Shown here: positions 35,833 through 54,037 of the stretch, in pieces
Position numbering within the stretch: position 1 is the first letter of the stretch
How the letters are laid out: every line of letters begins with the position of its first letter
Source of the DNA: Tardiphaga sp. vice304
Lineage (GTDB): Bacteria > Pseudomonadota > Alphaproteobacteria > Rhizobiales > Xanthobacteraceae
Assembly: GCF_007018905.1 (NCBI RefSeq)
Contig: NZ_CP041402.1
Location: 3,398,001-3,462,000 of the forward strand
Direction: 5' to 3'
Length of the DNA: 64,000 nt
Translations under genes and position numbers: made by a program
Notes under the pieces: model-generated
What the model saw: only the letters and a program-made list of their open reading frames with translations
What the model was told of the DNA's origin: nothing
Database searches by the model: none

Positions 35833-35906
35833 GGCCATGTGGCGGAGTGGTTACGCGCCGGTCTGCAAAACCGTTTATTCGGGTTCGATTCCCGACGTGG
35901 CCTCCA
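35833..35906 (+). tRNA. tRNA-Cys (GCA), integration target
   Basis: This 74-nt tRNA with encoded CCA has acceptor stem ggccatg/cgtggcc, D arm with gcggagtggttacgc, anticodon loop ctgcaaa (GCA), and T arm cgggttcgattcccg. Its 3' end, from the T-stem through the CCA, is the left attachment site of the adjoining element. The gene is kept intact because the element brought an identical 3' end. Confidence 0.95.
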
Positions 35907-35908
35907 TC
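35893..35908. other. attL: 16-bp core at the 3' end of tRNA-Cys
   Basis: The sequence cgacgtggcctccatc spans the end of the T arm, acceptor strand and CCA of tRNA-Cys. An identical copy occurs at 54022-54037 just beyond the integrase gene. The bases flanking the two copies differ, so the shared core is exactly 16 bp by eye. This defines the left boundary of the inserted element. Confidence 0.9.
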
Positions 35909-35985
35909 TAGTCATCCAAGCTATTGATATTGTTGATACTTTTTGGTCGGCGTCAGCTCTGCGCACATTTCAACGTACAATGAAA

Positions 35986-36017
35986 AACCCGCCGAGCTGG
36001 GGGGGCTCCGGCGGGTT
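35986..36017 (-). terminator. Terminator at the left end of the island
   Basis: A stem of aacccgccg/cggcgggtt with inner agc/gct pairs is followed on the minus strand by a run of five T. It would end transcripts of the minus-strand island genes before they enter tRNA-Cys. Confidence 0.7.
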
Positions 36018-36167
36018 CAGTCTATAGTCGCGGTGTGAGTTAGGAAGCCCGCTTGTAAGCTTATTGGCAGCCAGTCCTTAATAAAGGACCAGACGGCTCA
36101 GCAACGGCAGCCGCATACTAGCCTGCAGCGCCCATCGGGCCAGTTTTAAACGCATGCAGGAGTCGGA

Positions 36168-36479
36168 TCAGACGCACACCGTCCTCCATGCGATTGAGCG
36201 CCGAAGCGCTGCCAACGTCGACTCTCTAAAGTCCTGATATGGGATCGGCATCCCCAAAGAACGCCACGCGCCGTCAGGCAGATTCGCCAAATAGTCGAGT
36301 AAGGCCCGGCTATCATCGACGGTCGGAGTGCAGGCCAGAATGACCGCTCGCAGCGTGAACGGCGTGGCCAATTGCCGGTGTGCAGCGATTGCAACATCGG
36401 GCAGGACATTGACCGGGATGAAGCCGTTTACGCATCGCTCGATGACTGCAGCGGCGTCCAGTTCGCGGGGATCTGCCAT
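36168..36479 (-). CDS. Hypothetical protein at island left end
   Basis: This is a 103-aa soluble protein (MADPRELDAAAVIERCVNGFIPVNV...) without recognised domain. ATG 36479 overlaps the stop of the preceding gene (tgatg), though a GTG at 36482 is also possible. Helical segments such as DDSRALLDYLANLPDGAWRSLG suggest an all-alpha fold. It pairs with the acidic protein upstream, and the two are probably co-translated. A strong terminator lies ~150 nt downstream. Confidence 0.55.
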   Translation of the reverse strand: MADPRELDAAAVIERCVNGFIPVNVLPDVAIAAHRQLATPFTLRAVILACTPTVDDSRALLDYLANLPDGAWRSLGMPIPYQDFRESTLAALRRSIAWRTVCV

Positions 36480-36895
36480 CACAGCACCTCGCCAGATCGG
36501 CCATAGTGGCCGCCAACCTGCTCGGCTAGTCCGTCCATATCGGCAATGCCGCTAGCCTCGTCCCCACTCGGGTCCGCTTCCTCGTCATCCTCGCCTTCAC
36601 CGTGAAGGTGGGCGTTGACGCCATCGAGTTCGTCTTCATCGCAGGCGCCATCGTCTACCGCGTCCTCCAGCTCAAAGAACATGTAGGGGTCGGTTTGATC
36701 GAGAAAGGCCAGTAGCCGATCGATCTCGTCTCTGGCGGCCCTGCGGAGTCGTCCAATGGCCTTGAAGGCATCCTCGGGGGTAACGGGCGTCGGATAATAA
36801 AGCCCCTGTACGGGGCTCGCAGGGCTGTTGCTGGCGGGCGGAAGTACAGACGTGTTTGTGGGAAGCGTGCTATGCACGCTGTCAGCCTGGGTCAT
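36479..36895 (-). CDS. Acidic hypothetical protein
   Basis: This is a 138-aa protein with a proline/serine-rich disordered N-terminus. A helix APEDAFKAIGRLRRAARDEIDRLLAFLDQ-type segment near residues 40-65 and a very acidic C-terminal half (many D and E, including EGEDDEEADPSGDE) follow. Similar 'DEIDRLLAFLDQTDPYMFFELED' proteins recur in Bradyrhizobium accessory regions as far as I recall; function is unknown. An aagga site precedes the ATG. Its stop overlaps the next gene. The gene is divergent from the ribbon-helix-helix gene. Confidence 0.6.
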   Translation of the reverse strand: MTQADSVHSTLPTNTSVLPPASNSPASPVQGLYYPTPVTPEDAFKAIGRLRRAARDEIDRLLAFLDQTDPYMFFELEDAVDDGACDEDELDGVNAHLHGEGEDDEEADPSGDEASGIADMDGLAEQVGGHYGRSGEVL

Positions 36896-36967
36896 TGGAT
36901 TCCGCGTCCTTTGTGGCTTGGGTTAGAGCCGGGGCGGAAGTTGCAACCTTCCCCTCGGCTTGTTTTT

Positions 36968-37009
36968 GTGTTATCACAGCCACATGATCAAATCAAGTAG
37001 TGATAACAC
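36968..37009. promoter_or_regulatory. Perfect 10-bp inverted repeat over the start of the RHH gene (operator candidate)
   Basis: Arms gtgttatcac (36968-36977) and gtgataacac (37000-37009) are exact inverted copies separated by 22 nt. They flank the start codon (36984) of the small DNA-binding protein gene and sit in its divergent gap. Ribbon-helix-helix repressors commonly bind such paired sites and control themselves, so autoregulation is a reasonable inference. Confidence 0.6.
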
Positions 37010-37178
37010 AACCCCCCGCTGGAAGCGCTCTGCCGTAAAAGGGGCGCTGGTCGGCGTTCGATTGCAGCCGGAACAGCTTGCAGCGCTTGATCAGTGGATC
37101 GACAAGCAACCAGCATCTTTCACTCGACCGGAAGCGATGCGCGCGCTGATGGAGATCGGCCTCAGAACAAAAGCGTAA
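36984..37178 (+). CDS. Ribbon-helix-helix DNA-binding protein
   Basis: This is a 64-aa protein. A basic N-terminal arm (TTPRWKRSAVKG) leads into a beta-strand ALVGVRLQPEQL and two helices (AALDQWIDKQP, TRPEAMRALMEIGLRTK), the MetJ/Arc/CopG-like fold. Start 36984 is chosen; an in-frame upstream codon lies inside the operator-like arm. The gene reads plus, against the island's main direction, and is followed by a lipoprotein gene. It is likely a local repressor; a toxin partner is not evident next to it. Confidence 0.75.
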   Translation: MIKSSSDNTTPRWKRSAVKGALVGVRLQPEQLAALDQWIDKQPASFTRPEAMRALMEIGLRTKA

Positions 37179-37264
37179 TTCCCTTTCGGGCGCTGTCGCA
37201 CTTCTCCGGTGCCTTGCGCTGGCTTGCCGGTTGAGATTAGATCACTTTGGGCATGGGGATTTGA

Positions 37265-37684
37265 ATGCGCACTCTTTGGGTTGCCGGGCTTGCCATTTTA
37301 CTCTCTGGTTGCGCTGGCGGTGTCTCTCGGCAAGAGGTAGCTCAGCGACTAGGCGACCAATACAACGGCAAGCCCGTAGACAACTTGGTCGTCGAATTTG
37401 GTCCTCCTTCATCCCTATTCAAAATGAATAGCGGCGAAACTTCGTATGTCTGGCAGCTTGACTCGAGCACGAATGCGTACGTGACCGTGAACGGAGCTAA
37501 TGCCTCAGGTAGCTCATCGACCACGTTCTGCAAAGTGAGTGTCATCGCGTCGCCATCTGGCATCGTTACCAGGCTCACGACGGAAGATCAGGTCGGCTCT
37601 AACGGGTTGATAAGCCGAGCAACTGGCACCGACATGGTAGGAAGTATGTGCGCTCGCAGATTAGGCATGAAGCGCAGTAGCTAA
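37265..37684 (+). CDS. Putative lipoprotein (island cargo)
   Basis: This 139-aa protein has a type II signal peptide (MRTLWVAGLAILLSGC, lipobox LSGC, Cys16). The mature part (EVAQRLGDQYNGKPVDNLVVEFGPPSSLFKMNSGETSYVWQLDS) resembles the small lipoproteins that share a 'G.P...fg.P.....dG..yW' theme in rhizobia. A serine-rich middle and two further cysteines follow. It lies on the plus strand behind the RHH gene and ends convergent with the phage-like genes. It may be a moron gene altering the host envelope (inference). Confidence 0.65.
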   Translation: MRTLWVAGLAILLSGCAGGVSRQEVAQRLGDQYNGKPVDNLVVEFGPPSSLFKMNSGETSYVWQLDSSTNAYVTVNGANASGSSSTTFCKVSVIASPSGIVTRLTTEDQVGSNGLISRATGTDMVGSMCARRLGMKRSS

Positions 37685-37704: not shown

Positions 37705-38028
37705 TCAATTTCTGTACGCACCTTCGGCATACTCGCCTTCAAAGGCTAACCGGCTTTTGCCCGTCGCTGCCTCTAGGGCACCTTCGGCCTTCCCCAGCAA
37801 CAGCAAGGCGATCTGCTGATATTGTGAGTTCTCGGCATCGGTAACGACGCTCGCCAGAATGCGCCGCGCAAATGTCGCCAGTGCCAGTGCGTCTGCCGGA
37901 CTGTGAGCGTCACTTTCCAGAATACGCAAAACCGCGTCGAGGACATTATCGTTCTGCACCTCCCGCCCTTGCGAGCTGGCACGGATCATGGCGCTGATTT
38001 CGAGCGCGATCGATTGAGTGGTGTCCAT
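37705..38028 (-). CDS. Hypothetical phage-type protein
   Basis: This is a 107-aa, mostly helical protein (MDTTQSIALEISAMIRASSQGREVQ...), rich in A and L, without recognised domain. A good aagga site precedes its ATG. It lies 11 nt after the stop of the interrupted virion-internal-like gene and is the last gene of the long minus-strand transcription unit. It could be a small accessory of the virion or regulatory; nothing more can be said. Confidence 0.55.
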   Translation of the reverse strand: MDTTQSIALEISAMIRASSQGREVQNDNVLDAVLRILESDAHSPADALALATFARRILASVVTDAENSQYQQIALLLLGKAEGALEAATGKSRLAFEGEYAEGAYRN

Positions 38029-38039: not shown

Positions 38040-38942
38040 CTACTGCTGATTCGAGAACGCGCCGATGCCCGCAGCTGTCCCCCGCGCCATGCTGCGGGCG
38101 ATGTTCTGCATGTGCTCTGCTCTCGCCACGACATCCTCCACCATCCGGTTAAGTTCTGGGCGGGAGAATGTCTGGCCGTTCTGAGTAAGGATGTTGGCGA
38201 CCTCCCGCCGCACAGATGGCGTGTTGCCGGTCATCACGTTACTGCCGGCCTGCAAGGCGTACCGGACGGCGCCGGTCATGTTGCCGGTGAGAACGTGCCC
38301 GATAAAAGCGGGATCAACCGCCATGCCGCCCTGATCCGCCAGATTGTCAGCGGTCCTAGATCCTCCAAGGGCATGGTTGCGCGTCTCGAACATCGTATTT
38401 TCGCGGGCAATGCGCTGATTCATCAGCGTTTGCGTTCGCATCGGTGCAATTGCCGCAACCTCATCGCGGAAAGCGTCGTTCATCAGCGGCCGGGCTTTGT
38501 TGACACCGTGCGCGGCGCCCTGTGCAGCTTCCACCAGCGGGTCAGCATAGCCAGCCCTGAAGCCCGCCTGGCCCTGCGGTGTCAGCGCACGGAACGCCGG
38601 CAGAATGTCCTCAGTGCGGCCACGCTGCGAAGCGGCGCGCCCCGTATCGACCGCCTCAATATTACGGCTGGCCTGGGCAAAGTTACGGTTGGCCTGCCGA
38701 TATCCGGCAGACACCCCTTCCATCGCGGTATCAAGTTCGCGAACGGCGTTGCCGATCATTCGGGACCGATTGCCGTAACCGCTCTGTGCCGCGTTCTGTG
38801 CCGCATCGGACATATCGAAGCGAATGCGTTGCACAGCCTCGAAGTCGTCGGGGTTTACCCGTGCTAGACGCTGGCGGAACGGGGTCAGAATGGCCTCAAT
38901 ACTGTCGTTGGCCGGCGTGATGACCTGCCCCGGCTGCGTTCC
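38040..38942 (-). pseudogene. 3' part of IS21-interrupted virion-internal-like gene
   Basis: About 300 codons make up the C-terminal part of a protein split by the IS element at 38943-41585. The frame enters from the IS end, and after one target-copy base set it continues as TQPGQVITPANDSIEAILTPFRQRLARVNPDDFEAVQRIRFDMSDAAQ. The rest is long, Ala/Asn/Arg-rich helical sequence without recognised enzymatic motifs, of the type found in podoviral internal (ejection) proteins. A start codon within the IS end gives an artificial 312-codon open frame here, which is not the native gene. Confidence 0.8.
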
Positions 38943-41446
<2,504 letters not shown>

Positions 41447-41539
41447 TTGTCGCTCCACGACAATCAACTCCACGACACGCAATTATCACTTGCGTTATCG
41501 TCAGGCCGCGACAATCATCCCCACGCCGCGACCGCTAAA

Positions 41540-41585
41540 TTGCCATCCTGATTGTCGCGCTTCCCATCCAGATTGACGCGCTACA
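41540..41585. repeat. IS21 right end with terminal-repeat copies
   Basis: Two diverged inverted copies of the left-end unit (41544-41559 and 41564-41581) lead to the tip cgcgctaca ending at 41585. The target duplication copy cgttcc follows directly. Confidence 0.85.
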
Positions 41586-42698
41586 CGTTCCGATGGTGCG
41601 GTCGAGATGATTGATCGGGCCGACTAGATCGACAGGCTCCGAAGCGTTGCGCACCGCCCCATATTCAGCATCGGCACGAGTGGTACGCGCTGCCGTCATT
41701 CGGGCTTCCGTCTGAATAGCCGTTTGCGGGCTGTCAAAGCCCTCCATGATGGCATTGGAGATGCGTCGGCCCTGCCCCGCCTGCCGGTTCTCTAAAGCGT
41801 TCACGACCGCTGTACGGCCTTCCCCGGGCGCTCTGGCTACGGTCGAGAGCATACGCTGACCGGGATTGCCGAGAGCGTCGGCCAGCATGAACTGGCCCTG
41901 CCCCGCTGCGCTCGCATCACCGATTTCCCGCGCGATATCGTCAACGCTGCGACCGCTTTCCGAGATAGCCCGCCCTACCTGCCGTTCCGCGTAGCCGGCT
42001 GGATTCCGCCACGCCATCAAGTTCGCCATGATCGGGGACAGAGCGCGTCCGGTAACGCTCAGCACTGCCGGTGCCGCACCTCCAACCACTCCGCCAAGTA
42101 CGCTGCCGCCAATTGCGCCGCCAACCCTCGAGCCGGGATCGGCACTCAGCGCACCTTGTGCGGCACCCAGCGCCGTTCCATCGATCACCGATCCGAGAAT
42201 TGTCCGGCCAAGGCCAGTGCCGGCGCCTGCCGCTCTTGCGCCAAGAGAGACGGCGCCAAGCGGCAACACGCCTGCAACGGCGCCGCCGAGATTGCCGGCC
42301 ATAGTCGAGCCGGGATATTGCTGCTCAGCCGTTTTATATTCGGCTGCCGCGCGACCTCTGCCTGCCTCGTAACCCTCAGTCCCCGTTCCGGTCATGTAGC
42401 GATAGCCGCCGCGAAGCAAGCTGCCGAGCGACATTGGCTCGTCCGGCTTGATGCCGCCCGCCTCTGCAAGCCCTCGCATTTCATCGTAACCGCCAAGCGT
42501 AAGACCTTGCGCCACGCCGCGCCCGATCGCCGTGCCCCTGCCCACGTCAGGCTCCGCAGGCTTGATACCTACCTTGGCTTCAAAATCCGACTTAGGAATA
42601 TCGGAATAGAACTTCTTGTGCAGAGCGTCGGCCAACGCGCTGTCACTCATATCGGCATAGTCGGGGAACTGCTGACGGATCTCTGCAATGGTCGGCAT
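41586..42698 (-). pseudogene. 5' part of IS21-interrupted virion-internal-like gene
   Basis: These are the first 371 codons of the split gene. The N-terminus (MPTIAEIRQQFPDYADMSDSALADALHKKFYSDIPKSDFEAKVGIKP) is a motif seen at the start of many phage internal or ejection-associated proteins. It is followed by glycine/alanine-rich membrane-like stretches (GGAIGGSVLGGVVGGAAPAVLSV) and helical segments. The native frame runs into the IS after DRTIGT. Joining to 38936 after removing the IS and one cgttcc copy continues in frame, giving one 669-aa protein. The ATG overlaps the stop of the preceding gene by one base. Confidence 0.85.
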
Positions 42699-43792
42699 TA
42701 GCGGATTCCCAGCGGATCAGGCGTTGCGGCCGTTGCCGGCGACTGAACACCGGCCGATGCCCTTGCTTTGCCGTGCGCTCGCAGCATTCCGGTATTGATG
42801 ACCTCCTTAAGATCCTTCAATGCTGAGTTGAAAGCGTCCGGCGTCTGCGCATCGTTCAGCCGCGCAATCGAGGCGGTGCCCTTGGCGCCTTCAATATCAG
42901 TGATCGCGCCGCCACCCCTCAAAGTCTGGTAGGCCTGCATGAAGGTCTGACCCTGCAACTGGCCTAGCTGAGTTCTAAAATTAGCCTGTTCGGTGCCGGG
43001 GATGGTCGGCAACATGGCATACTTGCCGAGTGACCAGCCTTTGCCGGGATGGTTGTCAATCTGGTCGATCGTCTTCATCATGAGGTTTGAGGCGTCCACA
43101 ATCTGCGGCAGCGCCGACTTTCCATCAACTCGGTTCTTGGCGTCCGCTTCCTGTTCGACAACACCGCCGACATCCTTCGGAACGTTTCTGATTTCCTGCC
43201 GTGTGATCGGATCTACCAGCGATGTGCCGGTGCCGGTGTTGATCTGAAGCGGACTCTTTGAGATCGCAAAGCCCTTCGGCAACGGCACAGGCTGCGAGCC
43301 GCCATGATTGCTAAGCTGGACCATGGCCGGGTTGCCAGCCTCGTCAGTGCCGAATACCGGGTTCATCGAATATTTGGGCGCGTCTTCCTTCTTCAGACTT
43401 TCCGCGAAAGCTGGGTTCTGCTGACCGAAATTAAAGTTCTTGATCTTGTCCGTGATGCCGCCATTGGCAAGATCGTACAGCTTCTTTGCCGAGTCGATAT
43501 CGCCGGATGCAATGAAAGCATTAGTAAGCTGAGCAATCTTTGTCTGCTGATCGCCGGGGGCGCTCATGATCTGCGAGAATGCAGCCTGAGTGCGTCCACC
43601 CGGATCGGCGCGCTGTCCGGTAGCGAGACCGATACCGCCATTGATGATTGCAGAACCTAGCCCGCCGCTATTGGCAAAGCTCTGCAAGCCGGAAATGAGA
43701 TGATCGCCAAAGCCGGGGCCACTAGCCTGCGATGGCTGCGCCGCCGGCCCGATCGGAGAATTGCCGCCGAATAGAGCGTCGAGAATGCCCAT
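42698..43792 (-). CDS. Virion-internal-like phage protein
   Basis: This is a 364-aa Gly/Asn/Gln-rich protein (MGILDALFGGNSPIGP...). It has a conserved-looking middle (FGTDEAGNPAMVQLSNHG, IDNHPGKGWSLGKYAMLPTIPGTEQANFRTQLGQLQGQTFMQAYQTLRGGGAITDIEGAKG). The latter segment recurs in phage proteins encoded beside podoviral internal virion genes, to my recollection. No catalytic motif is seen. It begins 9 nt after the stop of the 331-aa gene and its stop overlaps the next ATG. A role in the ejected core or tail stub is inferred from position and composition. Confidence 0.6.
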   Translation of the reverse strand: MGILDALFGGNSPIGPAAQPSQASGPGFGDHLISGLQSFANSGGLGSAIINGGIGLATGQRADPGGRTQAAFSQIMSAPGDQQTKIAQLTNAFIASGDIDSAKKLYDLANGGITDKIKNFNFGQQNPAFAESLKKEDAPKYSMNPVFGTDEAGNPAMVQLSNHGGSQPVPLPKGFAISKSPLQINTGTGTSLVDPITRQEIRNVPKDVGGVVEQEADAKNRVDGKSALPQIVDASNLMMKTIDQIDNHPGKGWSLGKYAMLPTIPGTEQANFRTQLGQLQGQTFMQAYQTLRGGGAITDIEGAKGTASIARLNDAQTPDAFNSALKDLKEVINTGMLRAHGKARASAGVQSPATAATPDPLGIR

Positions 43793-44798: not shown

Positions 44799-44975
44799 TT
44801 AAACCGCCGCCGACAGCTCGACGCCATCAGCTTTCAGCCGGTCGATTACGGACTGGCGAACGTATTCAGATGAAGTGGTGAGTTTGCGCGTTGCCGCGAT
44901 GCGGATTGCCGTCGATAACGATGCAGGCGTGCGAACCTGCAGCAAGTCTTCGTATTTTAGACGATCTGCTCTCAT
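44799..44975 (-). CDS. Small ribbon-helix-helix-like protein
   Basis: This is a 58-aa protein (MRADRLKYEDLLQVRTPASLSTAIRIAATRKLTTSSEYVRQSVIDRLKADG...). The pattern of one strand (LLQVRTPASLSTAIRIAA) followed by two helices with TTSSEYVRQSVIDRL matches Arc/CopG-type folds. The ATG at 44975 follows a near-perfect aaggaggtga site, which decides against the overlapping upstream GTG. It may bind DNA and regulate the late genes that follow it. Confidence 0.65.
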   Translation of the reverse strand: MRADRLKYEDLLQVRTPASLSTAIRIAATRKLTTSSEYVRQSVIDRLKADGVELSAAV

Positions 44976-45686: not shown

Positions 45687-46227
45687 CGTTCCACCGAAGC
45701 GGCACCTTGCCGTCAGGAAACATGTCGATAGCCTTGCCCGGCACGGCTTGGGGCATGTCGAGCAATTGGACATCATCTCGCAAGGCGGCTTTAGCGTAGA
45801 CCAGCGCGCGCATGAACGCATTCCATACGGTCTTGAGCATATGGCGCGGCGGATGCTTCGCGAAGTCGTGAACCACGGTGATATACCGCTGCAAATAGCG
45901 CACTTCATGTTGCGGCATCCCGTCGCGATGAAGCTGCAGGAGGTACAAGACAATCTGTCCCTCGGAGGCCGGCAAGACTGGCAATCCGGCGGCCTCGCAC
46001 CATGCCGCGTAAGCATCGAAGGGCTTCATATCGATGTTTTGCAGCTTGGCCTCTGCCGTAACCCGTTCGCGAAGCGCCGCGCGCCATTCCTTAGCCCGCT
46101 CGGCATCTTCGGGAACGGTTTCGATCCACTCGCCAAAGGCGATAAGCTTGTGCGCTCGGTCATAGTCCATCGTTTTGATGTTGCCGGTAGTAAGATGCAG
46201 CACTGTAACATCGTGGATATTGGTCAT
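45673..46227 (-). CDS. Protein resembling a tyrosine-recombinase core-binding domain without catalytic domain
   Basis: This is a 184-aa protein. Residues ~70-145 (FDAYAAWCEAAGLPVLPASE, then a YLLQLHRDG helix and a RYLQRYITVVHDF helix) have the layout of the N-terminal SAM-like core-binding domain of phage-type tyrosine recombinases. No R...HxxR...Y catalytic part follows; the gene ends at 45673 and the next frame is unrelated. It lies 12 nt downstream of the terminase large subunit gene. It could be a stand-alone DNA-binding accessory or a remnant. The resemblance is by eye and needs testing. Confidence 0.5.
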   Translation of the reverse strand: MTNIHDVTVLHLTTGNIKTMDYDRAHKLIAFGEWIETVPEDAERAKEWRAALRERVTAEAKLQNIDMKPFDAYAAWCEAAGLPVLPASEGQIVLYLLQLHRDGMPQHEVRYLQRYITVVHDFAKHPPRHMLKTVWNAFMRALVYAKAALRDDVQLLDMPQAVPGKAIDMFPDGKVPLRWNDVAA

Positions 46228-46239: not shown

Positions 46240-47715
46240 CTATGCGACCATACGTGGCTTGAACTTCCAAGCGCGTGCTGTGGCCGGGTTGGATGGGCTG
46301 CTAAGAGCCGCGAGCGTAACCGCGCCGGCAACGGCGTTCGCTACGTCATCGTGCATTCCTTTGGGATGGTCCACGATATCGCGGCCGGTACCGCGCCCGA
46401 CGCGCCGCTCGAGGCTGGTCAACTGTCGGGTAAGGCGGTCATCGTCCAGCAAATCGACGCCGCGCGAATTAAGTAGCGGTAGCATGTCGAGATAGATCGC
46501 AGATTTAACCCGCTCGGAATGCTGGTAGTTGATACTCTGCTTTCGGAACGCCTCGGCCACCCATTCTGCGCCGTAGCGGTCGCCATAGACGGTACTGATC
46601 CGGTATCGCTTCATGACCTCGGCAAATTCGGCAACTGCAGCCTCTGGCGAAAAAGGTGGCTTAATCTCGCGTATCAAGTCGAGAATGGCCGTATCGCCTT
46701 CCTTATGGGCAATCGCCAGGGTCATGGAGTCGGCGCTTCCGCCGCTTGGATCTGTAAAGGCTACATAGCTGTGCAACCGTTCCGGCGGTCGCTCGAAAAC
46801 GCCATCCACAACGCAAGCCTGCACAGCTTCAATGTTGATTAAGGATTCAAGGTCGGAACGGAACTCTGCCCCAAATTCGGCGCTGGCCGATTCTGGGTCG
46901 TCGGCGTATGCCTCGCTGACTAGATTGCCATCGCGCGTTATGGCGGGATTCATGATCCATGTTGGCGCTTGGACAACTAGAACCTTGCCTGGCTTTCCGT
47001 AGTATTTTTGATACCGCTTCCACAAAAGCCCACGGCGCGCATAGGGGCTGGAAATCGCAATAACCATAGCACCAGGCATGGTTGCCATTGCCGGCTTTAC
47101 CGCGCGGTGCACGTCGATATCTGGAGAGGTACTGTTTTCCGATCGCCAGAAAGCGACTTCGTCGTAAACCGCAGCGACCACGGTGCGGCCTCGCACCCGG
47201 CGCTGGTCGGCGGTCGTCACTTCCACCGCAAAGCCGTTATTTAGCTCGATACTATCGGACGTAATGCGCGTAACCATCTTACGAAAGATTGGCTTCCGAA
47301 AGAAACCGCGAATGTAACCAAATGCAATCCCGGCCTGATCGCGGTCTACCGCGAGCAACTGGACAACGCCGGTTTCGCCTTCAACTAGCTTTTTCCGCCA
47401 ACCGTATGCCTCCACGCCAATGGTTGAAAGATAGGTACACAACGCGGCGCTTTTCACATTTTTGCCGCCACGGCGCCCGATGACAAGCCACACTTCCTCC
47501 GCCTGCGCTTCCGGGGCCTCTGTGCGCCCCGTCAGGCCGTGGAACACCCGCAGTTCATTCTCATCCAGCGGCAACCCAAAGATTGCCTTGTCAATAACGC
47601 GCCAATTAGCCCACGTTGGGCCAGTGAACACGTCGCCAAACAAGTTGGGGTCTAGGCAGGCATCGGCGAATGAGATGGCGGTATCAGTCAAAGTCCACCG
47701 CCATGGCGTCAGCAA
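46240..47715 (-). CDS. terL: Terminase large subunit
   Basis: This 491-aa DNA-packaging motor/nuclease has an N-terminal ATPase domain. It shows a degenerate Walker A (VIGRRGGKN, ~residue 79) and Walker B (VVAAVYDEVAFW, ~182), followed by a coupling segment VIAISSPYARRG. The C-terminal RNase H-like nuclease has FTDPSGGSADSMTLA (~322), VYGDRYGAEWV and the acidic pair in GMHDDVANA. Length and motifs suggest a full protein. ATG 47715 lies 32 nt inside the preceding gene. It provides motor and cleavage functions, but no portal gene to dock it is found in the island. Confidence 0.88.
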   Translation of the reverse strand: MLTPWRWTLTDTAISFADACLDPNLFGDVFTGPTWANWRVIDKAIFGLPLDENELRVFHGLTGRTEAPEAQAEEVWLVIGRRGGKNVKSAALCTYLSTIGVEAYGWRKKLVEGETGVVQLLAVDRDQAGIAFGYIRGFFRKPIFRKMVTRITSDSIELNNGFAVEVTTADQRRVRGRTVVAAVYDEVAFWRSENSTSPDIDVHRAVKPAMATMPGAMVIAISSPYARRGLLWKRYQKYYGKPGKVLVVQAPTWIMNPAITRDGNLVSEAYADDPESASAEFGAEFRSDLESLINIEAVQACVVDGVFERPPERLHSYVAFTDPSGGSADSMTLAIAHKEGDTAILDLIREIKPPFSPEAAVAEFAEVMKRYRISTVYGDRYGAEWVAEAFRKQSINYQHSERVKSAIYLDMLPLLNSRGVDLLDDDRLTRQLTSLERRVGRGTGRDIVDHPKGMHDDVANAVAGAVTLAALSSPSNPATARAWKFKPRMVA

Positions 47716-48562
47716 GCGTTCCGCTTCTGCTGAGACGATCTAGGTTGCTGGTGGTCCGTTTTGCTGGCCGGGGCTGCTGTCGTGGACGCGGGGCTGGACG
47801 ATCCGTCTTTTCCAGTCCGATCGATGCAAGGTGTGCCAGCCGGAACAGACGATGGTCGACAACGTCGCGTAACTCGCTATCGCTGAAGTCGCAGGCATAG
47901 ACTGCCTCTCGCACCCTTCCCAAGAACTTCTCGCGCTCGGCTTCGTCGACACACTCAGGGAAGGCTTTGAGCAGGGCTCTGCCTTCGCGTGCCATTCGGC
48001 CGGCATGGTGCTGGCTCGCCACTGTGGCGGTGCTCTGCCCTACCTGGCTGGCCATCTGCAGGATCTGCTGGACGATACCGTGCGTCTCGTCGTGAACGGC
48101 CTTAAGCCGGGTGTACGCAACCGGATCAGCCACGCTCAGCTCAGCGCTGGGCAGGCCGGGCAGCTTGGAATTGATGTAGCCAGCGAGCGCCAGAGCGCCT
48201 TGGACCACGTTCTGAGCGGCGTCGACCACCTTGCCATAGTCTTCGTAAAGGCCGGTGACTGCATCCTGCCGGGCAACGCCCTGGACATACCCGTTGACCA
48301 GATCAGCCATGGTGAGCGGCTGGCCGCCAACGGTGACGACGACAGGTTGTCCCCTTGACACCGTGACAGGGGCACCATCCTCGTCAAACTCGTCGACAGC
48401 CTGCTCCAGTGACAGGCCGCCGGCAGTAATCTCTCCGCTTTCCAACGTGCCGGGGTCATAAGTAGGCGCATGCTCGCTCTGCTCTGCCGGGACCAGATCG
48501 TGCGTCGTGTAGTCGTCCTCCATGGAGGATGCGGCCTGGTCGATTGTGAGAGTATCTGACAT
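47684..48562 (-). CDS. Acidic scaffold-like phage protein
   Basis: This is a 292-aa protein with an acidic N-terminal half (MSDTLTIDQAASSMEDDYTTHDLVPAEQ...) and a long helical middle. A basic C-terminal region (RPAPRPRQQPRPAKRTTSNLDRLSRSGTLADAMAVDFD) follows. Acidic, alpha-helical proteins with a basic C-terminal tail are typical of capsid scaffolds, and position near terminase fits. No sequence motif proves this. Its ATG overlaps the TerS-like stop (tgatg), and its end overlaps terL by 32 nt. Confidence 0.5.
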   Translation of the reverse strand: MSDTLTIDQAASSMEDDYTTHDLVPAEQSEHAPTYDPGTLESGEITAGGLSLEQAVDEFDEDGAPVTVSRGQPVVVTVGGQPLTMADLVNGYVQGVARQDAVTGLYEDYGKVVDAAQNVVQGALALAGYINSKLPGLPSAELSVADPVAYTRLKAVHDETHGIVQQILQMASQVGQSTATVASQHHAGRMAREGRALLKAFPECVDEAEREKFLGRVREAVYACDFSDSELRDVVDHRLFRLAHLASIGLEKTDRPAPRPRQQPRPAKRTTSNLDRLSRSGTLADAMAVDFD

Positions 48563-48945
48563 CAGGTGCCAACCTTTCGGTTCACGTAGTGGTCAATTGA
48601 GGGGGTGAGGTCGCGGGCAACCCGCTTGAGGCCTAACGTCTCCAGCAAGCGGCGCTCGGCATTGCCAAGCGTGGCAAACAGCGCCGGGTCGATCTGCTGG
48701 CCCATCAGCCAGCGCGCGGCCAGGTCTTCCGACATGGCGGCAGTGATGGCTACCTTGCGGATCAGTAGCTGCTCGCCAGTGCTGAGGTGGTCGGCGCCGC
48801 CGAGGTCGGAGGTGATGGCGTCGATGGTCCTGCTGACCAACTGAGCGGCGCGGGTTCGGCCGTCTAGATCATCGATGCACAGCAGCCGCACCTTGCCTTT
48901 ACCGCCGTCAGGCTTGGCTTCTATCTCGGCGGCATCTGCCGGCAT
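48562..48945 (-). CDS. Terminase small-subunit-like protein
   Basis: This is a 127-aa, mainly helical protein. DLDGRTRAAQLVSRTIDAI followed by DLGGADHLSTGEQLLIRKVA and FATLGNAERRLLETLGLKRVARD is a pattern I recall from proteins encoded directly upstream of terL in phages of Rhizobiales. It is often annotated hypothetical or TerS-like. It heads the packaging cluster (TerS-like, scaffold-like, TerL), each overlapping the next. The assignment rests on position and recalled family pattern, not on a tested match. Confidence 0.55.
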   Translation of the reverse strand: MPADAAEIEAKPDGGKGKVRLLCIDDLDGRTRAAQLVSRTIDAITSDLGGADHLSTGEQLLIRKVAITAAMSEDLAARWLMGQQIDPALFATLGNAERRLLETLGLKRVARDLTPSIDHYVNRKVGT

Positions 48946-49235
48946 TCATCGCGCTCCGCATCAAATAGACTGCGGCCAGTATAGCGAAAAAGGAGCGTTA
49001 TTCCAAGTTTGTTTGTGCGTAGAGATGTACGCAGTAAGACTGCATAAGACGATGCGATTGATTTTATTTGAGTTTATTTCGTCAATTGAGGACGGATGAT
49101 CCGCCGCAAGCGATTAATGCGAGGTGGAACTGAATGCAGTCAAAGCCTCTCGCCAGAAAAAAACTGCGTTGGAACCCGGCTCCGCACGTACCTCAAACAT
49201 CCTCTCTCGCCATAGTCATGCGACAGCCCCCCTGC
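48946..49235. other. Intergenic region between packaging and replication genes, AT-richer part
   Basis: No gene is supported here. The stretch is AT-richer than its surroundings, especially around 49000-49080 (ttatttgagtttatttcgtcaat type sequence). It may hold the promoter of the minus-strand packaging genes. A frame at 49140-49388 (minus) lacks coding character. Confidence 0.4.
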
Positions 49236-49368
49236 CTGCCACACCTGCCACACCTGAGGTGAGGCAAAGTTCGGCAGACTGAGGCAGCCAGTTGCCACAC
49301 CACCACCCCTCTTAGGGGTGTGGGGGTGGGGCGTGGCGAGAAAACATTGAAGAGTGAGGTGAGGCAAA
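49236..49368. other. Repeat-rich gap next to rep: candidate replication origin
   Basis: The stretch directly after the RepA-like gene holds several repeats. Two tandem copies of ctgccacac (49236-49253) and a related one near 49293 are present. The palindrome cacctgaggtg lies at 49251-49261. Two exact copies of tgaggtgaggcaaa lie exactly 100 bp apart (49255-49268 and 49355-49368), and a perfect hairpin caccccT/Aggggtg with 3-nt loop spans 49304-49320. Iteron-like repeats beside a replication gene suggest an origin. The hairpin could equally be the rep terminator. Confidence 0.45.
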
Positions 49369-50688
49369 TCATGCCGCCACCTGCACATACTTACGCGTCA
49401 TTCGCTTCTCGTCTTGATCCTCAACCACAACAAGACTGCCCTGACCTATCCAGATTTTAACAAGGCCGTTGACCTTTGCCCTATCCGGTTTGCTGTCGAG
49501 GTCTAGGCGCAATGCCTTAGCGATGGGGCGCCCAACCCAATCGGTTGCCTGGTTGCTTTCTCGCCAGCGCCCCCTGCCGATCTCTACTGCGGCAGCCTCG
49601 AAGTCTGAGCCGCTAATGCCGTCCAAGGGGTCGGGCCACTTCCACCGCGTGACCACACCCACACTGTCACCGGCTGGCGCAACGCTGGGGCCGTTTCCGA
49701 GCGATACAGGCACTATCTGATACCAGTCCTTCCCCTCGGGGGGCGGGCCTAGATTGATCTTGCCGTTATCGACACTGAAATAGGATCGGTGATTAGCAAC
49801 TCCGCTCTTTGCCGCGTCGGCCTCACTCATCTTGTTGAGCACCTGAGCTGATCGAACGGCGTTGAGAACGGCTACTGCCCCTCGTCCGTCTTCAACCGTG
49901 GCGTCGGCACCACCGGTCTTTTTGGTGTGGTGGATCAACTCAATTGCGGTGTTCGTTTCACCTGCAATCGCTGTCCACTTCTTAGCCACCATATCCATGG
50001 CGCCATTGTCGTTTTCGGTCACGCGGTGCGATGAAACGAAGGGGTCGATAATCACCACGTCGATTTCATTGTCGAGGATGGTATCGACCAACGATTTTAC
50101 CATGGGGATAGCGATAGAAGTCCCGCTTTTCGGGTTTTGGGTAGCAATAATGATTTCCTGATCTCTGCCGCTATCGGTCCAGAGCCATCCTTCGAGCATG
50201 GTACCGTCAATGCCGAAATGCAGACAGATAGCGGCGACGCGACGGTCGGTCTCTTCCTGGGGATCTTCGCCGTTCCAGTACCAGACCTTGCACCGCTTTG
50301 CCGGCGCCACACCCAGCAATGCGCGGCCGGTGGCAAGTGCGATTGCTTCAGCCAGTGCCAAAGCAGACTTGCCGACACCCCCCGCCGCAAACTTGGCAGA
50401 GGCAAACTTGCGGATCAGATGGGTTCCATAAAGAAACTCTCTGCGGGGCATGTCTGCAGGGTCACGCCAGACGTATGGCGTTGCCTTCAACTCTTTGGCC
50501 TTCGGCGGGATGCAAGCCGGCTCTGCGCCGGGGTATTGATCCCACCATGCCCGAATTACTTCCGGGTCGCTGCTGGCCTTTGAGATATCCAAAAGCGGCT
50601 CGCCTGTGCGGGCGTCTGCCGGCAATACGGCAAACCCATTGGCGGCTGCGTTAAGCGCGTCATAAACTCCCACCCGTTCCACTTTCAT
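49369..50688 (-). CDS. RepA-like AAA ATPase (helicase) with reduced prim-pol-like N-terminus
   Basis: This is a 439-aa replication protein. Residues 9-60 (YDALNAAANGFAVLPADARTGEPLL, then a segment ending IRAWWDQYPGAEPACIP) match the first part of prim-pol domains, but the catalytic acidic core is absent. Residues ~80-330 form a RecA-like hexameric helicase of the AAA_25/RepA type: P-loop GGVGKS at 103-108, Walker B VVIIDPF, and ELIHHTKKTGG. ATG 50688 overlaps the upstream stop (atga). It probably drives replication of the excised island, with the repeats immediately downstream as a possible origin. Confidence 0.8.
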   Translation of the reverse strand: MKVERVGVYDALNAAANGFAVLPADARTGEPLLDISKASSDPEVIRAWWDQYPGAEPACIPPKAKELKATPYVWRDPADMPRREFLYGTHLIRKFASAKFAAGGVGKSALALAEAIALATGRALLGVAPAKRCKVWYWNGEDPQEETDRRVAAICLHFGIDGTMLEGWLWTDSGRDQEIIIATQNPKSGTSIAIPMVKSLVDTILDNEIDVVIIDPFVSSHRVTENDNGAMDMVAKKWTAIAGETNTAIELIHHTKKTGGADATVEDGRGAVAVLNAVRSAQVLNKMSEADAAKSGVANHRSYFSVDNGKINLGPPPEGKDWYQIVPVSLGNGPSVAPAGDSVGVVTRWKWPDPLDGISGSDFEAAAVEIGRGRWRESNQATDWVGRPIAKALRLDLDSKPDRAKVNGLVKIWIGQGSLVVVEDQDEKRMTRKYVQVAA

Positions 50689-51194
50689 GCGGCCTCCGGC
50701 GGGGTCATGCAATGAGTGACGGGCAGTTCGTTGCTGCCTCGAATAGCCTTGATCCGCTCTTTCCATGCGTTGCTCTGGTTGGGTCGAGTTTCGATCAGCA
50801 AGACATTCTTGCGATGTTTGGCGGCCATAGTGGCGACCATTCGATAGGGGTACGGTTCAGGTCCGCTCGAGACTATGACGGCGTAACTGGCTTCGTTTAT
50901 CGCCTTGTCCAGCGAGTCCGCCGGAAAGGCTCTTGGTCCCCAAACAAAATGCAGGTCATCGCCTAGGTAGAGGATCCAAGGAGAGCGCGGCAGCTCGAAA
51001 GTTTCGCATCCCTGCGGCGCGATCAGAAACGAGCATGCAAAGTTCGCAACTGCGTCAAATAGTGGGAACAGATGCGATCGGCGGATAGCCCGGTCTCGTT
51101 TGATCGCGGCTCTAGCCTTGTCCGGTTCAATCGTGACAAGCGGCATTTCCGGCAACAGAACGGTCATGCCTTCGGCTTCAATGGTGATGCTCAT
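50685..51194 (-). CDS. Hypothetical protein of replication module
   Basis: This is a 169-aa protein (MSITIEAEGMTVLLPEMPLVTIEPDKARAAIKRDRAIRRSHLFPLFDAVANF...) with alternating strands and helices and an ASYAVIVSSGPEPYPYRMVATMAAKHRKNVLLIETRP segment suggesting a Rossmann-like alpha/beta fold. No named domain is recognised. It overlaps the genes on both sides by 4 nt and lies directly upstream of rep, so an accessory replication role is plausible but unproven. Confidence 0.55.
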   Translation of the reverse strand: MSITIEAEGMTVLLPEMPLVTIEPDKARAAIKRDRAIRRSHLFPLFDAVANFACSFLIAPQGCETFELPRSPWILYLGDDLHFVWGPRAFPADSLDKAINEASYAVIVSSGPEPYPYRMVATMAAKHRKNVLLIETRPNQSNAWKERIKAIRGSNELPVTHCMTPPEAA

Positions 51195-51457
51195 TCGTCA
51201 CCGCCTTCCAGGCCAGCCACAATCATCTTGTGAATCAGCCCGTCACCGTGTGCGATAACCAGCCCGTTCGCTTCTGCGACGGTGTAGAGGAAGTCACAGA
51301 TTTCCGTCTGTCGTGTTCGCTCGTAAGCGAGCATTGCGCCAAGCCGTTTGCACTCATCCTCGAATGCCCAAATGCGGGCGTTGGCGATATTGCGCTGGGC
51401 ATCCTGTTTTGCGGCGTTGAAGTCAGGTTCAATCCTGATCGCTGCAACGTTAGTCAT
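51191..51457 (-). CDS. Small hypothetical protein
   Basis: This is an 88-aa protein (MTNVAAIRIEPDFNAAKQDAQRNIANARIWAFEDECKRLGAMLAYERTRQTEICDFL...), mostly one long helix with charged residues followed by a short GLVIAHGDGLIHKMI segment. The start overlaps the preceding stop (taatg) and the end overlaps the next ATG by 4 nt. No family is recognised. It is part of the early module between alpA and rep. Confidence 0.55.
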   Translation of the reverse strand: MTNVAAIRIEPDFNAAKQDAQRNIANARIWAFEDECKRLGAMLAYERTRQTEICDFLYTVAEANGLVIAHGDGLIHKMIVAGLEGGDE

Positions 51458-51639
51458 TAGCGCACCTCCCCAAAGACGAGAGGGGCAATGATGGCAGCCA
51501 TCGCAGCGCTGATCGCGCAGCGGCGGGTAATTCTGGATACTTGATATTCTCTGGTGGCTGTGACATACTCCAAATTGTCCTGGCAGACATCAGCATTCGG
51601 AAGAAGCTCGCCCCACTGGCGGGCTTTTTCTTTGGTCAT
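51457..51639 (-). CDS. Small hypothetical protein
   Basis: This is a 60-aa protein (MTKEKARQWGELLPNADVCQDNLEYVTATREYQVSRITRRCAISAAMAAIIAPLVFGEVR). The ATG at 51639 lies 4 nt after the alpA stop; the frame is open further upstream inside alpA. A C-terminal hydrophobic stretch (CAISAAMAAIIAPLVFG) could be a membrane segment. Function is unknown. Confidence 0.45.
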   Translation of the reverse strand: MTKEKARQWGELLPNADVCQDNLEYVTATREYQVSRITRRCAISAAMAAIIAPLVFGEVR

Positions 51640-51643: not shown

Positions 51644-51850
51644 TCAAGCGGCCTCCGTCTGGAGGGCTGCGGCCTGAATGGCAGCAATCTCATCATCGAA
51701 CCAGACAACAATGTTGCCGTCTGGATTAAGCTTCTTGCCTTTTGGGTAGACGCCTTTCTTGATGCCCGCGTACCAGGTGGCCTTGCTGCAGGCTAACGCA
51801 TCGAGAACAGCAGGAAGCCGAAGTGCCTTCCGAACCATATCAAACTCCAT
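51644..51850 (-). CDS. alpA: AlpA-family transcriptional regulator
   Basis: This is a 68-aa protein whose body (KALRLPAVLDALACSKATWYAGIKKGVYPKG, then NIVVWFDDEIAAI) is the compact winged-HTH of AlpA proteins. These regulate or assist excision in prophages, P4-like elements and Gram-negative phage-inducible islands. ATG 51850 is chosen because the longer frame overlaps the upstream gene and lacks similarity; 51838 is an alternative. Its place between int and rep is the hallmark arrangement of those islands. Confidence 0.82.
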   Translation of the reverse strand: MEFDMVRKALRLPAVLDALACSKATWYAGIKKGVYPKGKKLNPDGNIVVWFDDEIAAIQAAALQTEAA

Positions 51851-51923
51851 TAGGCCGGGATGGCCTATGGGTCGAACATGATGTTTTTGGGCGGGCGGCT
51901 CACGGGTTAGGCTTTCAGAAATT

Positions 51924-52628
51924 TTACGGAGCTTTAACCCGGCGAGCGGTCTTGTAATGGGAACGGACAGTTTCGACGCTGATGTCATCGCGGATGGCGG
52001 TTGCCTGCAGCGCCTTGCGAACAAAGGAAATGCCGTCCGTAGTCGTCTCGGTTCGGATTGAAAATCTGCCCATAAACTTTTCGTACAGGCTCGGCAGCCT
52101 TGATCCGGCCGCCCACACAATTCCGGATTGATCTGGCCTCTCATCAATTTCAGCGGCAATCACCTTTTGTGCATCGGACGCGATCCGATGAACTGTTGCT
52201 GCGATTCCAAAAAAGCTGCTGATCACCTCTGCCGATCCGTAGTCTATTAGATGGTCCGCACCTGCGATGCGCGAAGGTTTGAAATTGACCGGTAGCGTTT
52301 CGGAATAGTGCTTTGCCCAGATCTCTCCCATCTGCGCGACAGCCAGCATTGCTGCGGACGCGTGAGCGTCGCCGTTGTCGATCGACTTACTGAAATCTGC
52401 GATGCGCTTAATGCTCTGAAGCATTTCCCCTATCTTAGCGGCAACGGCTGTATTCTTTACCGCATTCGCTTCTTGCTCGCGGCAGTCATACATGACGCGC
52501 AAGTCGATTAGCAGAAAGCATAGCCGCGCCTGTCGACGCCACGGAAGCTCCGCATAAGACGCAAAGTCCCGCAATTGTTCGTGGAGGGTTTTTGGCGTGA
52601 TGCCGTCATAACTGCGGATGATCATCAT
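51924..52628 (-). CDS. Hypothetical protein coupled to integrase
   Basis: This is a 234-aa soluble helical protein (MMIIRSYDGITPKTLHEQLRDFASYAELPWRRQARLCFLLIDLRVMYDCREQEANAVKN...). I recognise no domain. The ATG overlaps the integrase stop (atga), so both are made from one message. It ends 73 nt before the alpA start. The C-terminal ISVETVRSHYKTARR helix looks like an HTH recognition helix, so DNA binding is possible. Confidence 0.55.
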   Translation of the reverse strand: MMIIRSYDGITPKTLHEQLRDFASYAELPWRRQARLCFLLIDLRVMYDCREQEANAVKNTAVAAKIGEMLQSIKRIADFSKSIDNGDAHASAAMLAVAQMGEIWAKHYSETLPVNFKPSRIAGADHLIDYGSAEVISSFFGIAATVHRIASDAQKVIAAEIDERPDQSGIVWAAGSRLPSLYEKFMGRFSIRTETTTDGISFVRKALQATAIRDDISVETVRSHYKTARRVKAP

Positions 52629-53872
52629 ACCCGCCCATCGCAGTACGCAGCCCAGTCTTCCATCAGCCGGCGCCGCTTTTCGATCATGTCGCCTCGGCGA
52701 TAGGCAGCCTCTGTCTTGTCGGGGACGGTGTGAGCGTAGGCATACTCGACCAGATCGGTTGGGTAGTCCGTTTGCTCAGTTGCCCAGTCTTTGAAGGTGG
52801 ACCGAAAGCCGTGAACCGTGGCGACCGTGCCGGGATATCCCATGCCCTTCAGGAGTTGATCCATCGCGGCGCTCGACAGGCCTTTGCCCGGCTTCCCGCC
52901 CGGGAAGACAAATCCGCCCTCGCTGGACACCTCCTTGAGGAATGCCACGGCTCGCGCCGTCAGTGGAATTACCAGATCCCGCCGCTCCTTCCCCTTTCGG
53001 CCCTTGAGCCGCTTGCCTGAAATCGTCCATGTCGCTTTCTCCAGATCCATCTCTGGCAGCGTGGCGCCAATAGTCGCGTCGGTCCGCATCGCGGTCAGGA
53101 TGGTCAGTTCGAGCGCCCGTGCACTCACACAATCGTTGGCTCGCAGCTTTTTCATAAAATTCGGCAAGTCGGCGTAGGGCATGGCCGGATAATGGGTTAC
53201 AGGCGATACCTGCTCGCGTGCCGGCAGCACCTGATCAATGAAGCCCGTCCACCGCGCCGGATTATCCCCCGACCGGTGTCCATGCACCTTTGCCCAATCC
53301 AGCACGTTCTCAATTCTGTTTCGGACCCGGCTCGCGGTTTCTGTTTTTTCCGACCAAAACTGCCCTAGCTCGGTTTTGTTGCCTTTTTTATTTACTTGTT
53401 GCTTGAGAACTTTGAGCACCAGCGCCAGACTGACATCGCTAACTGGCAGATGCCCGATGGTCGGATAGGCATACCGCTCTAGACTTGATGTCCATTGCTC
53501 AGCATGCCGGGGGCTCTTCCAACCTTCCTCCCGGTCGGCAATGCACTGCGTGGCGCATTCCTTAAAGGTGAGGGCCTTGGTGTCCACGGCCTGCGAGGCC
53601 CGCACCGCATCGCGGGCAGCGATAGGGTCGATCCCGTCCACGACTAAACTGTACGCAGCCTGGGCCTTCTTGCGGGCGTCAGCGAGCTTCACCCGTTCAA
53701 AATCGCCAAGCCCCATTTTCCTCGCGTGACCGCGTATCATGAAGCGGAACACCCATGCCTTGGTGCTCGAACTCGAAACCTGCAGATACAATCCGCCGCC
53801 GTCACCATATAGGCCGGGGGGCAGCATCTTCTCGCAGAACTTCACCGAAAGCTTATTAGCAGCGCGACCCAC
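52625..53872 (-). CDS. int: Tyrosine-type integrase (DUF4102 N-terminus)
   Basis: This is a 415-aa site-specific recombinase of the P4/CP4-57 kind that typically targets tRNA 3' ends. The arm-binding N-terminus includes LYLQVSSSSTKAWVFRF and GLGDFERVKLADARKKA (DUF4102). The core-binding domain spans ~100-200, and the catalytic domain has arginine in AMRTDAT (~258), HGFRSTFKDWA (~351) and the tyrosine near AAYRRGD (~392). It sits next to attR and reads inward. It is full length and apparently intact, so excision may still be possible. Confidence 0.93.
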   Translation of the reverse strand: MGRAANKLSVKFCEKMLPPGLYGDGGGLYLQVSSSSTKAWVFRFMIRGHARKMGLGDFERVKLADARKKAQAAYSLVVDGIDPIAARDAVRASQAVDTKALTFKECATQCIADREEGWKSPRHAEQWTSSLERYAYPTIGHLPVSDVSLALVLKVLKQQVNKKGNKTELGQFWSEKTETASRVRNRIENVLDWAKVHGHRSGDNPARWTGFIDQVLPAREQVSPVTHYPAMPYADLPNFMKKLRANDCVSARALELTILTAMRTDATIGATLPEMDLEKATWTISGKRLKGRKGKERRDLVIPLTARAVAFLKEVSSEGGFVFPGGKPGKGLSSAAMDQLLKGMGYPGTVATVHGFRSTFKDWATEQTDYPTDLVEYAYAHTVPDKTEAAYRRGDMIEKRRRLMEDWAAYCDGRV

Positions 53873-53920
53873 CGGAGGCTCCGAGTCAAATATACGTACA
53901 AATCAGACTTGGAACGTAGT

Positions 53921-54008
53921 GGACCAGCCTAGACCTGTCTAGACTAGATATGGCCTGTAATTTACGAGGTTTTGAAACGAATCAGACGGCGCTAGACCAG
54001 GCTGGTCC
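53921..54008. repeat. Inverted and direct repeats near attR (arm-type site candidates)
   Basis: Exact 10-bp inverted arms ggaccagcct (53921-53930) and aggctggtcc (53999-54008) lie between the integrase start and attR. The hexamer ctagac recurs at about 53929, 53939 and 53992. Such short repeats beside an attachment core are typical of integrase arm sites or Xis/AlpA sites. Confidence 0.5.
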
Positions 54009-54021
54009 TGTAGTTGAAGGA

Positions 54022-54037
54022 CGACGTGGCCTCCATC
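54022..54037. other. attR: 16-bp copy of the tRNA-Cys 3' end
   Basis: The sequence is identical to 35893-35908 (cgacgtggcctccatc), but here it is not part of a tRNA; the upstream bases cannot form the rest of tRNA-Cys. It marks the right boundary of the island. Core DNA with GC-rich coding sequence resumes beyond it. Confidence 0.9.

Follow-up and report, generated by a model that had tools for sequence, protein, structure and literature searches.

A tRNA-Cys island of Tardiphaga sp. vice304 encoding a terminase, a scaffold and ejection proteins is a candidate phage satellite

The DNA of Tardiphaga sp. vice304 carries, at a tRNA-Cys gene, an island that we propose to be a phage satellite equipped with its own DNA packaging and DNA ejection genes. 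The window analyzed was 64,000 nucleotides long (contig NZ_CP041402.1, positions 3,398,001 to 3,462,000) and all positions given are those of the window. The island occupies 35893-54037, a length of 18.1 kb, or 15.5 kb once an IS21-type insertion sequence (IS) is subtracted. On the minus strand, starting at the integrase end, the gene order is integrase, a gene of 234 amino acids (aa), an AlpA-like gene, small genes, a RepA-like ATPase gene and a 423-bp gap, followed by the genes for a TerS-like protein (terminase small subunit), a scaffold and TerL (terminase large subunit), then genes of 184 and 114 aa, a helix-turn-helix (HTH) gene, a 61-aa open reading frame (ORF), an ejection cassette of three genes, a 107-aa gene and cargo. 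The features that carry the argument are these (E values follow the family matched):

35833-35906, plus strand: tRNA-Cys(GCA), the intact integration target (ARAGORN and sequence)
35893-35908: att core on the tRNA side, 16 bp, exact repeat
54022-54037: att core on the integrase side, 16 bp, exact repeat
52625-53872, minus strand: tyrosine integrase, 415 aa (phrog_1, 5.6e-37; PF22022, PF13356, PF00589)
51644-51850, minus strand: AlpA-like regulator, 68 aa (PF05930, 18.8 bits, below the Pfam cut-off of 21)
49369-50766, minus strand: RepA-like AAA ATPase with a Prim-Pol-like N-terminus (AAA_25, 4e-34; phrog_25693, 3.9e-47)
48946-49368: gap of 423 bp between rep and terS (weak 14-bp direct repeat pair)
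48562-48945, minus strand: TerS-like protein, 127 aa (position, alignment, fold model and Foldseek)
47684-48562, minus strand: scaffolding protein, 292 aa (phrog_3927, 1.5e-28; alignment; low-confidence helical model)
46240-47715, minus strand: TerL, 491 aa, true start possibly further in (phrog_2, 4.6e-19; alignment of 17; tree)
43801-44796, minus strand: ejection gene 1, 331 aa (gp14/gp7-like position; relatives in podovirus-type prophages)
42698-43792, minus strand: ejection gene 2, 364 aa, P22 gp20-like (phrog_2534, 4.7e-17)
41535-42698, minus strand: ejection gene 3, first half, 387-aa frame (phrog_5880, 3e-55)
38040-38978, minus strand: ejection gene 3, second half, 312-aa frame (phrog_5880, 7.8e-41)
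38946-41561: IS21-type insertion, ends approximate (IstA 39006-40640 and IstB 40637-41446, both plus strand; inverted repeats)

The exact att repeats noted in the original prediction were present, the left copy covering the final 14 bases (the 3' end) of the tRNA-Cys gene. The G+C fraction of the island is 0.587 versus 0.649 and 0.667 in the flanks. The right flank was found in all 18 genomes of the genus, the source genome (G000) included, and 15 of the 17 others had a tRNA-Cys gene called close to the flank gene on the short loci compared, a pattern that fits empty sites. The exceptions were L048 (G015) and L056 (G017), where G, L and C numbers are our labels for genomes, loci and contigs. 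As the right flank, over its first 175 to 255 bases, fails to align with the empty sites, the right edge of the island was placed by the repeat. The G015 site is taken by a different island (contig C211, about 42.5-67 kb, L067 and L068), which has a related integrase (DNA 75-78% identical to that of the vice304 island), an AlpA-like gene and a c56-type replication gene, and which lies near a TerL island at tRNA-Asn. No TerL was recognisable in the G015 tRNA-Cys island, and the comparison of islands described below makes no use of it.

The integrase gene is intact, its product matching three Pfam integrase domains, and the AlpA assignment was upheld by a match of 8.7e-8 to a profile of AlpA-like genes from related islands, a profile that may include the gene itself. 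The RepA-like ATPase was likewise recovered, with a Prim-Pol match (3.8e-4) under the cut-off of that family, but the repeats said to adjoin it proved weak: one 14-bp pair and one 10-bp tandem. Judged by its sequence, the gap between rep and terS is a possible origin or packaging site. The island therefore has what is looked for in a satellite in this respect: it is integrated between att repeats and has its own integrase and replication gene.

In TerL, residues G80, K85, D185-E186, D322, D379 and D456-D457, which we take to form the ATPase and nuclease catalytic sites, were unchanged across 17 aligned sequences. Genomes with TerL matches numbered 12 of 200 relatives, 11 of 397 from the order and 4 of 398 from the phylum at thresholds of 1e-3, 1e-40 and 1e-40, respectively; the sets overlap and each count includes G000. 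Exact peptides from one TerL sequence found no match in viral contigs, and a 17-row TerL profile gave 105 viral relatives, of which 80 were kept. A tree of 94 of 109 loci (LG+G4, quick search, SH-aLRT support only; loci without a TerL call or with a TerL outside 380-700 aa excluded) placed the vice304 island with L001 and G049a (support 96), and these three with L082, G240 and L083 in a six-row clade (support 100) in which no portal marker was found and L083 has capsid and protease markers. Over the whole tree the portal label, carried by 32 of the 94 rows, changed 12 times versus 26.8 in shuffles. The neighbouring 127-aa protein is predicted, at a modest level, to be TerS from its position, conservation and a modest fold match; its cluster adjoins TerL in 14 of the first 17 loci compared.

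The 292-aa protein is shown by sequence comparison to be related to the internal scaffolds of RHph_N2/pCB2047-type podoviruses and is predicted to be one. It can be aligned with the phage proteins from about residue 74 to the final residues, the first 70 or so being different, and its model, of low confidence (mean pLDDT 63.5), combines long helices with a disordered N-terminus and with short helices at the C-terminus. Among viral stretches with this scaffold family, taken as the best 80 of 115 matches and mutually non-independent, the next gene encoded a capsid of the RHph_N2 family in 80/80 and a portal gene lay ahead of the scaffold in 69; the island-type TerL occurred in none, and TerLs of RHph_N2 or pCB2047-C type in 57. 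Complete phages with this scaffold family (circular records) have the order TerL, portal, small gene, scaffold, capsid, whereas in the vice304 island the scaffold comes before TerL. Eight relatives were found in a protein collection, one from Tardiphaga sp. vice352 that was 97% identical and seven at 30-63%, and across 397 genomes of the order there were 8 matches besides G000, all much weaker. The 274-aa gene of L001 and the 328-aa gene of G116 were tried as scaffolds and showed no link.

Ejection proteins of the P22 and T7 types are coded in the order gp14-like, gp15-like, gp16-like (PMC8954989). All three virion-internal-like genes of the original prediction were recovered. The C-terminal part of the 364-aa protein matches P22-like gp20 and Sf6 gp12 (tblastn, 29-36% of the query), and the 387- and 312-aa frames align consecutively on the same phage proteins and hence are one gene, split. 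The 331-aa protein may be gp14/gp7-like with an outer-membrane role, as assigned by its position only; its relatives number at least 986, and of the 120 listed many have at their end a peptidase S74 domain, which is missing here. With four prophage homologues the protein shares 46-53% identity along 245-275 of the 331 residues. The gene had no match in viral contigs. A prophage of the same bacterial family (G119, L253) has an ejection trio of 367, 428 and 665 aa in the same order, with identities to the vice304 cassette of 47, 40 and 39-57% over the aligned parts. Single comparisons with the ejection proteins of ppBeUSDA76-2 and RHph_N3_2 gave weak similarity or none; thus, kinship to these rests on gene order and on other searches.

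The third ejection gene is split by the IS21-type element (IstB, PF01695, 8.7e-66; IstA, PF22483, 4.7e-7). The original gene inventory had overlooked both this insertion and the 114-aa gene (45342-45686), and its description of a single overlapping minus-strand series does not hold, since the element, with IstA and IstB on the plus strand, interrupts it and plus-strand ORFs lie at 36960-37684. The genome has at least 27 full-length matches to the element including this copy, at 95-100% identity, a lower bound because 40 of 152 candidates were scored. As five copies, this one included, are at 100% after rounding, the insertion looks recent, and the present copy of the island has probably lost its third ejection protein recently by this route. 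The element is apparently active in the vice304 genome.

A scan of 20 ORFs of the window against PHROGs gave no portal, capsid or tail match below 0.001, and up to E 0.1 the sole such match was to 'tail protein' (0.027) by the 234-aa protein; the 114-aa and 72-aa proteins, IstA and IstB were searched by Pfam only, and the 60-aa ORF at 51457-51639 stood outside the scans. The absence of capsid, portal and tail genes was thereby confirmed for the ORFs scanned, and a lack of genes for a complete virion is also what is looked for in a satellite. A block of portal, capsid and tail genes separating TerL from the 331-aa gene in close relatives would, according to the original prediction, have spoken against the satellite reading. 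In vice352 the scaffold is locus tag 15805 and the 331-aa homologue 15785, with three tags between, one of them presumably TerL; by tag numbers alone, that strain gives no support for such a block.

The TerS-TerL pair recurs in a family of islands. We compared 29 genome loci (a first 17, L001 included, and 12 more; two partial matches in G487 were left out), of which 18 lie at tRNA genes between repeats of 14-51 bp; the distance from one repeat to the other runs from 9598 to 18429 bp, with a median of 14650 bp. The tRNA targets are Cys, Lys, Arg, His, Asn, Ala, Glu, Gln, Ser and Leu, and the weakest repeats are the shortest, those of G736 (14 bp) and the vice304 island (16 bp). An integrase marker was found in 27/29 loci, and the integrase lies 106-578 bp from the att copy distal to the tRNA in all 17 testable islands. 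A portal marker was found once (G054) and a capsid marker once (G026), both among the att-bounded islands, leaving 16 of the 18 with neither, and a protease marker in G026, G036a and G036b; the markers come from few clusters and miss divergent genes, and several loci are cut by contig ends. In G351 TerL is split. A further 24 proteins of L001, G049a and G116 gave no portal, capsid or tail PHROG match at 0.001, with one 'major head protein' match (L001) considered below.

Gene content past TerL varies among these islands. Podovirus-type ejection proteins were found in the vice304 island, G116 and L001, and a tape measure in G240 and G468 (marker) and in G216 (TMP_3, 1.8e-41), with weaker matches in G015 and G362. 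G116, an att-bounded island at tRNA-Lys in another genus, has post-TerL genes of 328, 196, 107, 60, 362 and 630 aa versus 184, 114, 95, 61, 331 and 364 aa plus the split gene in vice304. The 196/184 and 107/114 pairs are similar, as are the 630-aa protein and the split gene, and the 362- and 364-aa proteins share phrog_2534. We tentatively suggest, at a little less than even odds, that these islands form a family in the Alphaproteobacteria and beyond in which a common chassis, integrase-AlpA-rep-TerS-TerL, is joined to an inner, ejected virion part matched to the helper phage: a P22-type cassette for short-tailed helpers (vice304, G116, L001) and a tape measure for long-tailed ones (G240, G468, G216). 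If so, such satellites would govern what accompanies the DNA into the cell and borrow the exterior of the particle.

The best overall explanation of the vice304 island, to which we assign a probability of about 0.64, is a tRNA-integrated phage satellite with its own motor, scaffold and injector that uses the shell of a helper podovirus. Of the two readings originally offered, this one is favored by the chassis islands and by the position of the scaffold before TerL. That the element is a satellite rather than a broken prophage is highly probable, because the TerS-TerL chassis recurs in tRNA-integrated islands, 16 of the 18 att-bounded examples being without portal and capsid markers. The mechanism as a whole, a chimeric virion, we consider somewhat more apt to be right than wrong. 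Upon growth in the cell of a helper podovirus of the RHph_N2/pCB2047 type, the island would excise and replicate. Its scaffold, which matches the helper type in the conserved C-terminal half and final residues but not in the N-terminal part, would compete for the helper coat protein against the helper's own scaffold and may reduce the size of the shell. The island TerS-TerL would dock on the helper portal and pack island DNA, and the island ejection proteins would be loaded in place of those of the helper and deliver the DNA to the next cell. The resulting particle would have the shell and tail of the helper and the motor, scaffold and injector of the satellite. As the scaffold must fit its coat protein, a podovirus with an RHph_N2-type capsid is the natural helper candidate. 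Such capsid genes were found in 22 of 391 genomes of the bacterial family, one close and 21 distant.

Several observations weigh against this explanation. The helper-type capsid is absent from G000 (by a single capsid query and then by a 12-row capsid profile) and from all 18 genus genomes by the 12-row profile. The scaffold was found in none of the 11 other island genomes searched (12 with its own), and hence scaffold exchange is not a trait of the family. The TerS-like protein matched no family in PHROGs or Pfam; its best fold match among viral models (0.045) is not significant by E value, and neither profile search nor fold search found anything of weight in the PDB. With 32 of the 94 TerL tree rows in contigs that have portals, the TerL type is not a mark of satellites alone. 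This copy has a broken third ejection gene, and in vice352 the homologue of the 331-aa gene is shortened and its end altered. G116 has the extra 328-aa gene, and no counterpart of the 331-aa or HTH gene was detected in it. The nearest TerLs, those of L001 and G049a, are in contigs that end about 0.7 kb and 4.3 kb past TerL, so the absence of capsid genes there is shown only in part. Finally, the 492-aa protein of L001 matches the PHROG 'major head protein' at 1.6e-28 and phrog_5880 at 2.2e-5; we tentatively read it as an ejection protein.

Three other explanations were weighed. The island could be a satellite whose scaffold and ejection proteins poison helper assembly, as defence or interference, and are not built into particles of its own. 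Satellites do interfere with assembly, as PLE11 Rta blocks ICP1 tail assembly (PMC12987554), but a complete, ordered cassette with a P22 gp20-like second member exceeds the needs of a poison, and the 331-aa protein has kept its identity to prophage homologues. We judge this improbable. Equally improbable is descent from a satellite of the capsid-forming phage-inducible chromosomal island (cfPICI) kind that lost its capsid genes and now borrows a capsid. The presence of capsid and protease markers in L083, within the closest TerL clade, and in G026, elsewhere in the tree, speaks for such descent, as do gains and losses of capsid, portal and protease genes across the chassis. However, within the reach of their contigs L001 and G049a show neither a capsid nor a portal marker, and the island scaffold goes with another capsid family, the RHph_N2 one. 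The least probable of the three, a prophage that lost its portal-capsid-tail block and left the remainder as debris, can point to the prophage-type scaffold and ejection genes, the gene split by the IS and the shortened vice352 homologue, but a decayed prophage should show a known phage order minus one block, whereas here the scaffold lies upstream of TerL, an arrangement that simple deletion is unlikely to give from the portal-scaffold-capsid order of the phages, TerL and TerS are those of the island chassis (this TerL being absent from all 80 scaffold phage stretches, 57 of which have another), several of these genes follow TerL in the same order in an att-bounded island of another genus (G116), and the IS damage looks recent.

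The remaining genes of the island are as follows:

51924-52628, minus strand: 234-aa gene after int, no assigned function (coding score; overlaps int)
51457-51639, minus strand: 60-aa ORF (coding score 8.4, gene-caller threshold 8)
51191-51457, minus strand: 88-aa gene (coding score)
50685-51194, minus strand: 169-aa gene (coding score; no PHROG or Pfam family)
45673-46227, minus strand: 184-aa gene (G116 homologue, phmmer 2.8e-5)
45342-45686, minus strand: 114-aa gene (BLASTP 3e-12 to a G116 gene; no Pfam family)
45058-45345, minus strand: HTH_17 protein, 95 aa (PF12728, 4.5e-9; phrog_66 excisionase/regulator, 1.2e-5)
44799-44984, minus strand: 61-aa ORF (by position, a 60-aa gene at a similar place in G116)
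37705-38028, minus strand: 107-aa gene after the cassette (coding score)
36960-37684, plus strand: 72-aa and 139-aa ORFs (dropped by the gene caller; no Pfam family)
36168-36895, minus strand: 138-aa and 104-aa ORFs at the tRNA end (ORFs; the 104-aa one dropped by the gene caller)

Relatives of the HTH_17 protein lie directly after TerL in three viral contigs, the 139-aa ORF matches phrog_3135 at 2.2e-4, and the 138-aa gene is related to a gene within island G015 (4.7e-7). Among the other islands, L001 has a PAPS-reductase-like gene (7254-8522, PF01507, 1.4e-14) with a relative of the same cluster at L032:3298-3954 in island G054, and the G098 island (L024:2826-4394) encodes a 522-aa dCMP-deaminase-like protein (phrog_9198, 4.8e-97). 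The c66 marker, a protein of about 206-292 aa often directly after or near TerL, is present in 10 of the 29 loci; tried as a scaffold, this cluster gave no profile link.

Satellites are mainly known for redirecting packaging and shell size, to which work published in 2026 on the phage-inducible chromosomal island-like elements (PLEs) has added the swapping of inner tail parts (PMC12987554). If chassis islands indeed swap the whole injector of short-tailed phages, replacement of the inner, ejected parts would be a general satellite strategy, and the chassis (TerL clade plus int-AlpA-rep) offers a sequence handle for finding more elements in the Hyphomicrobiales and related bacteria. In the portions available of the open-licence literature on satellites with ejection proteins, tape measures or terminases, there was no account of an island of the vice304 type; satellite families are treated in PMC11389934, and in AH14b no terminase could be identified by its authors (PMC4936722). 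The original statement that most known satellites carry TerS and not TerL leaves out the capsid-forming islands. With the Gram-negative phage-inducible chromosomal islands (PICIs) the vice304 island shares the int, AlpA, rep order. PICIs measure about 12-15 kb (the vice304 island 18.1 kb, or 15.5 kb without the IS), sometimes carry terS, and have a lack of phage structural genes among their criteria (PMC6092414); the TerL, scaffold and ejection genes of the vice304 island depart from that criterion. The cfPICIs, as stated in PMC12409344, encode all proteins of their own capsids; the vice304 island resembles them in its own packaging genes, and its chassis relatives G026 and L083 in their capsid and protease markers, but it has no capsid or portal match and thus lacks the defining own capsid. 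The proposed scaffold competition recalls SaPI1 CpmB, which acts as an alternative internal scaffold and competes for coat protein with that of the helper (PMC12409344), although the vice304 scaffold, at 292 aa, is of nearly full size and belongs to another family. The podoviruses RHph_N2, RHph_N3_2 and pCB2047-C have homologous scaffold or ejection proteins but are complete phages with portal, capsid and tail, and their TerLs gave no match to the island TerL in the comparisons of islands. The closest parallel in function is the PLE of Vibrio cholerae, which makes chimeric tails by means of a PLE-encoded tape measure and swapped inner tail parts (PMC12987554). That article also lists putative tape measure genes for both PLE-like elements and cfPICIs, so a tape measure carried by a satellite is in itself no novelty. 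Like the PLE, the vice304 island would provide inner virion parts and borrow the shell and other tail parts. Compared by function only, the PLE replaces the tape measure, tail chaperone and hub of a contractile-tailed phage, whereas the vice304 island has a podovirus-type ejection cassette, a scaffold and a full terminase.

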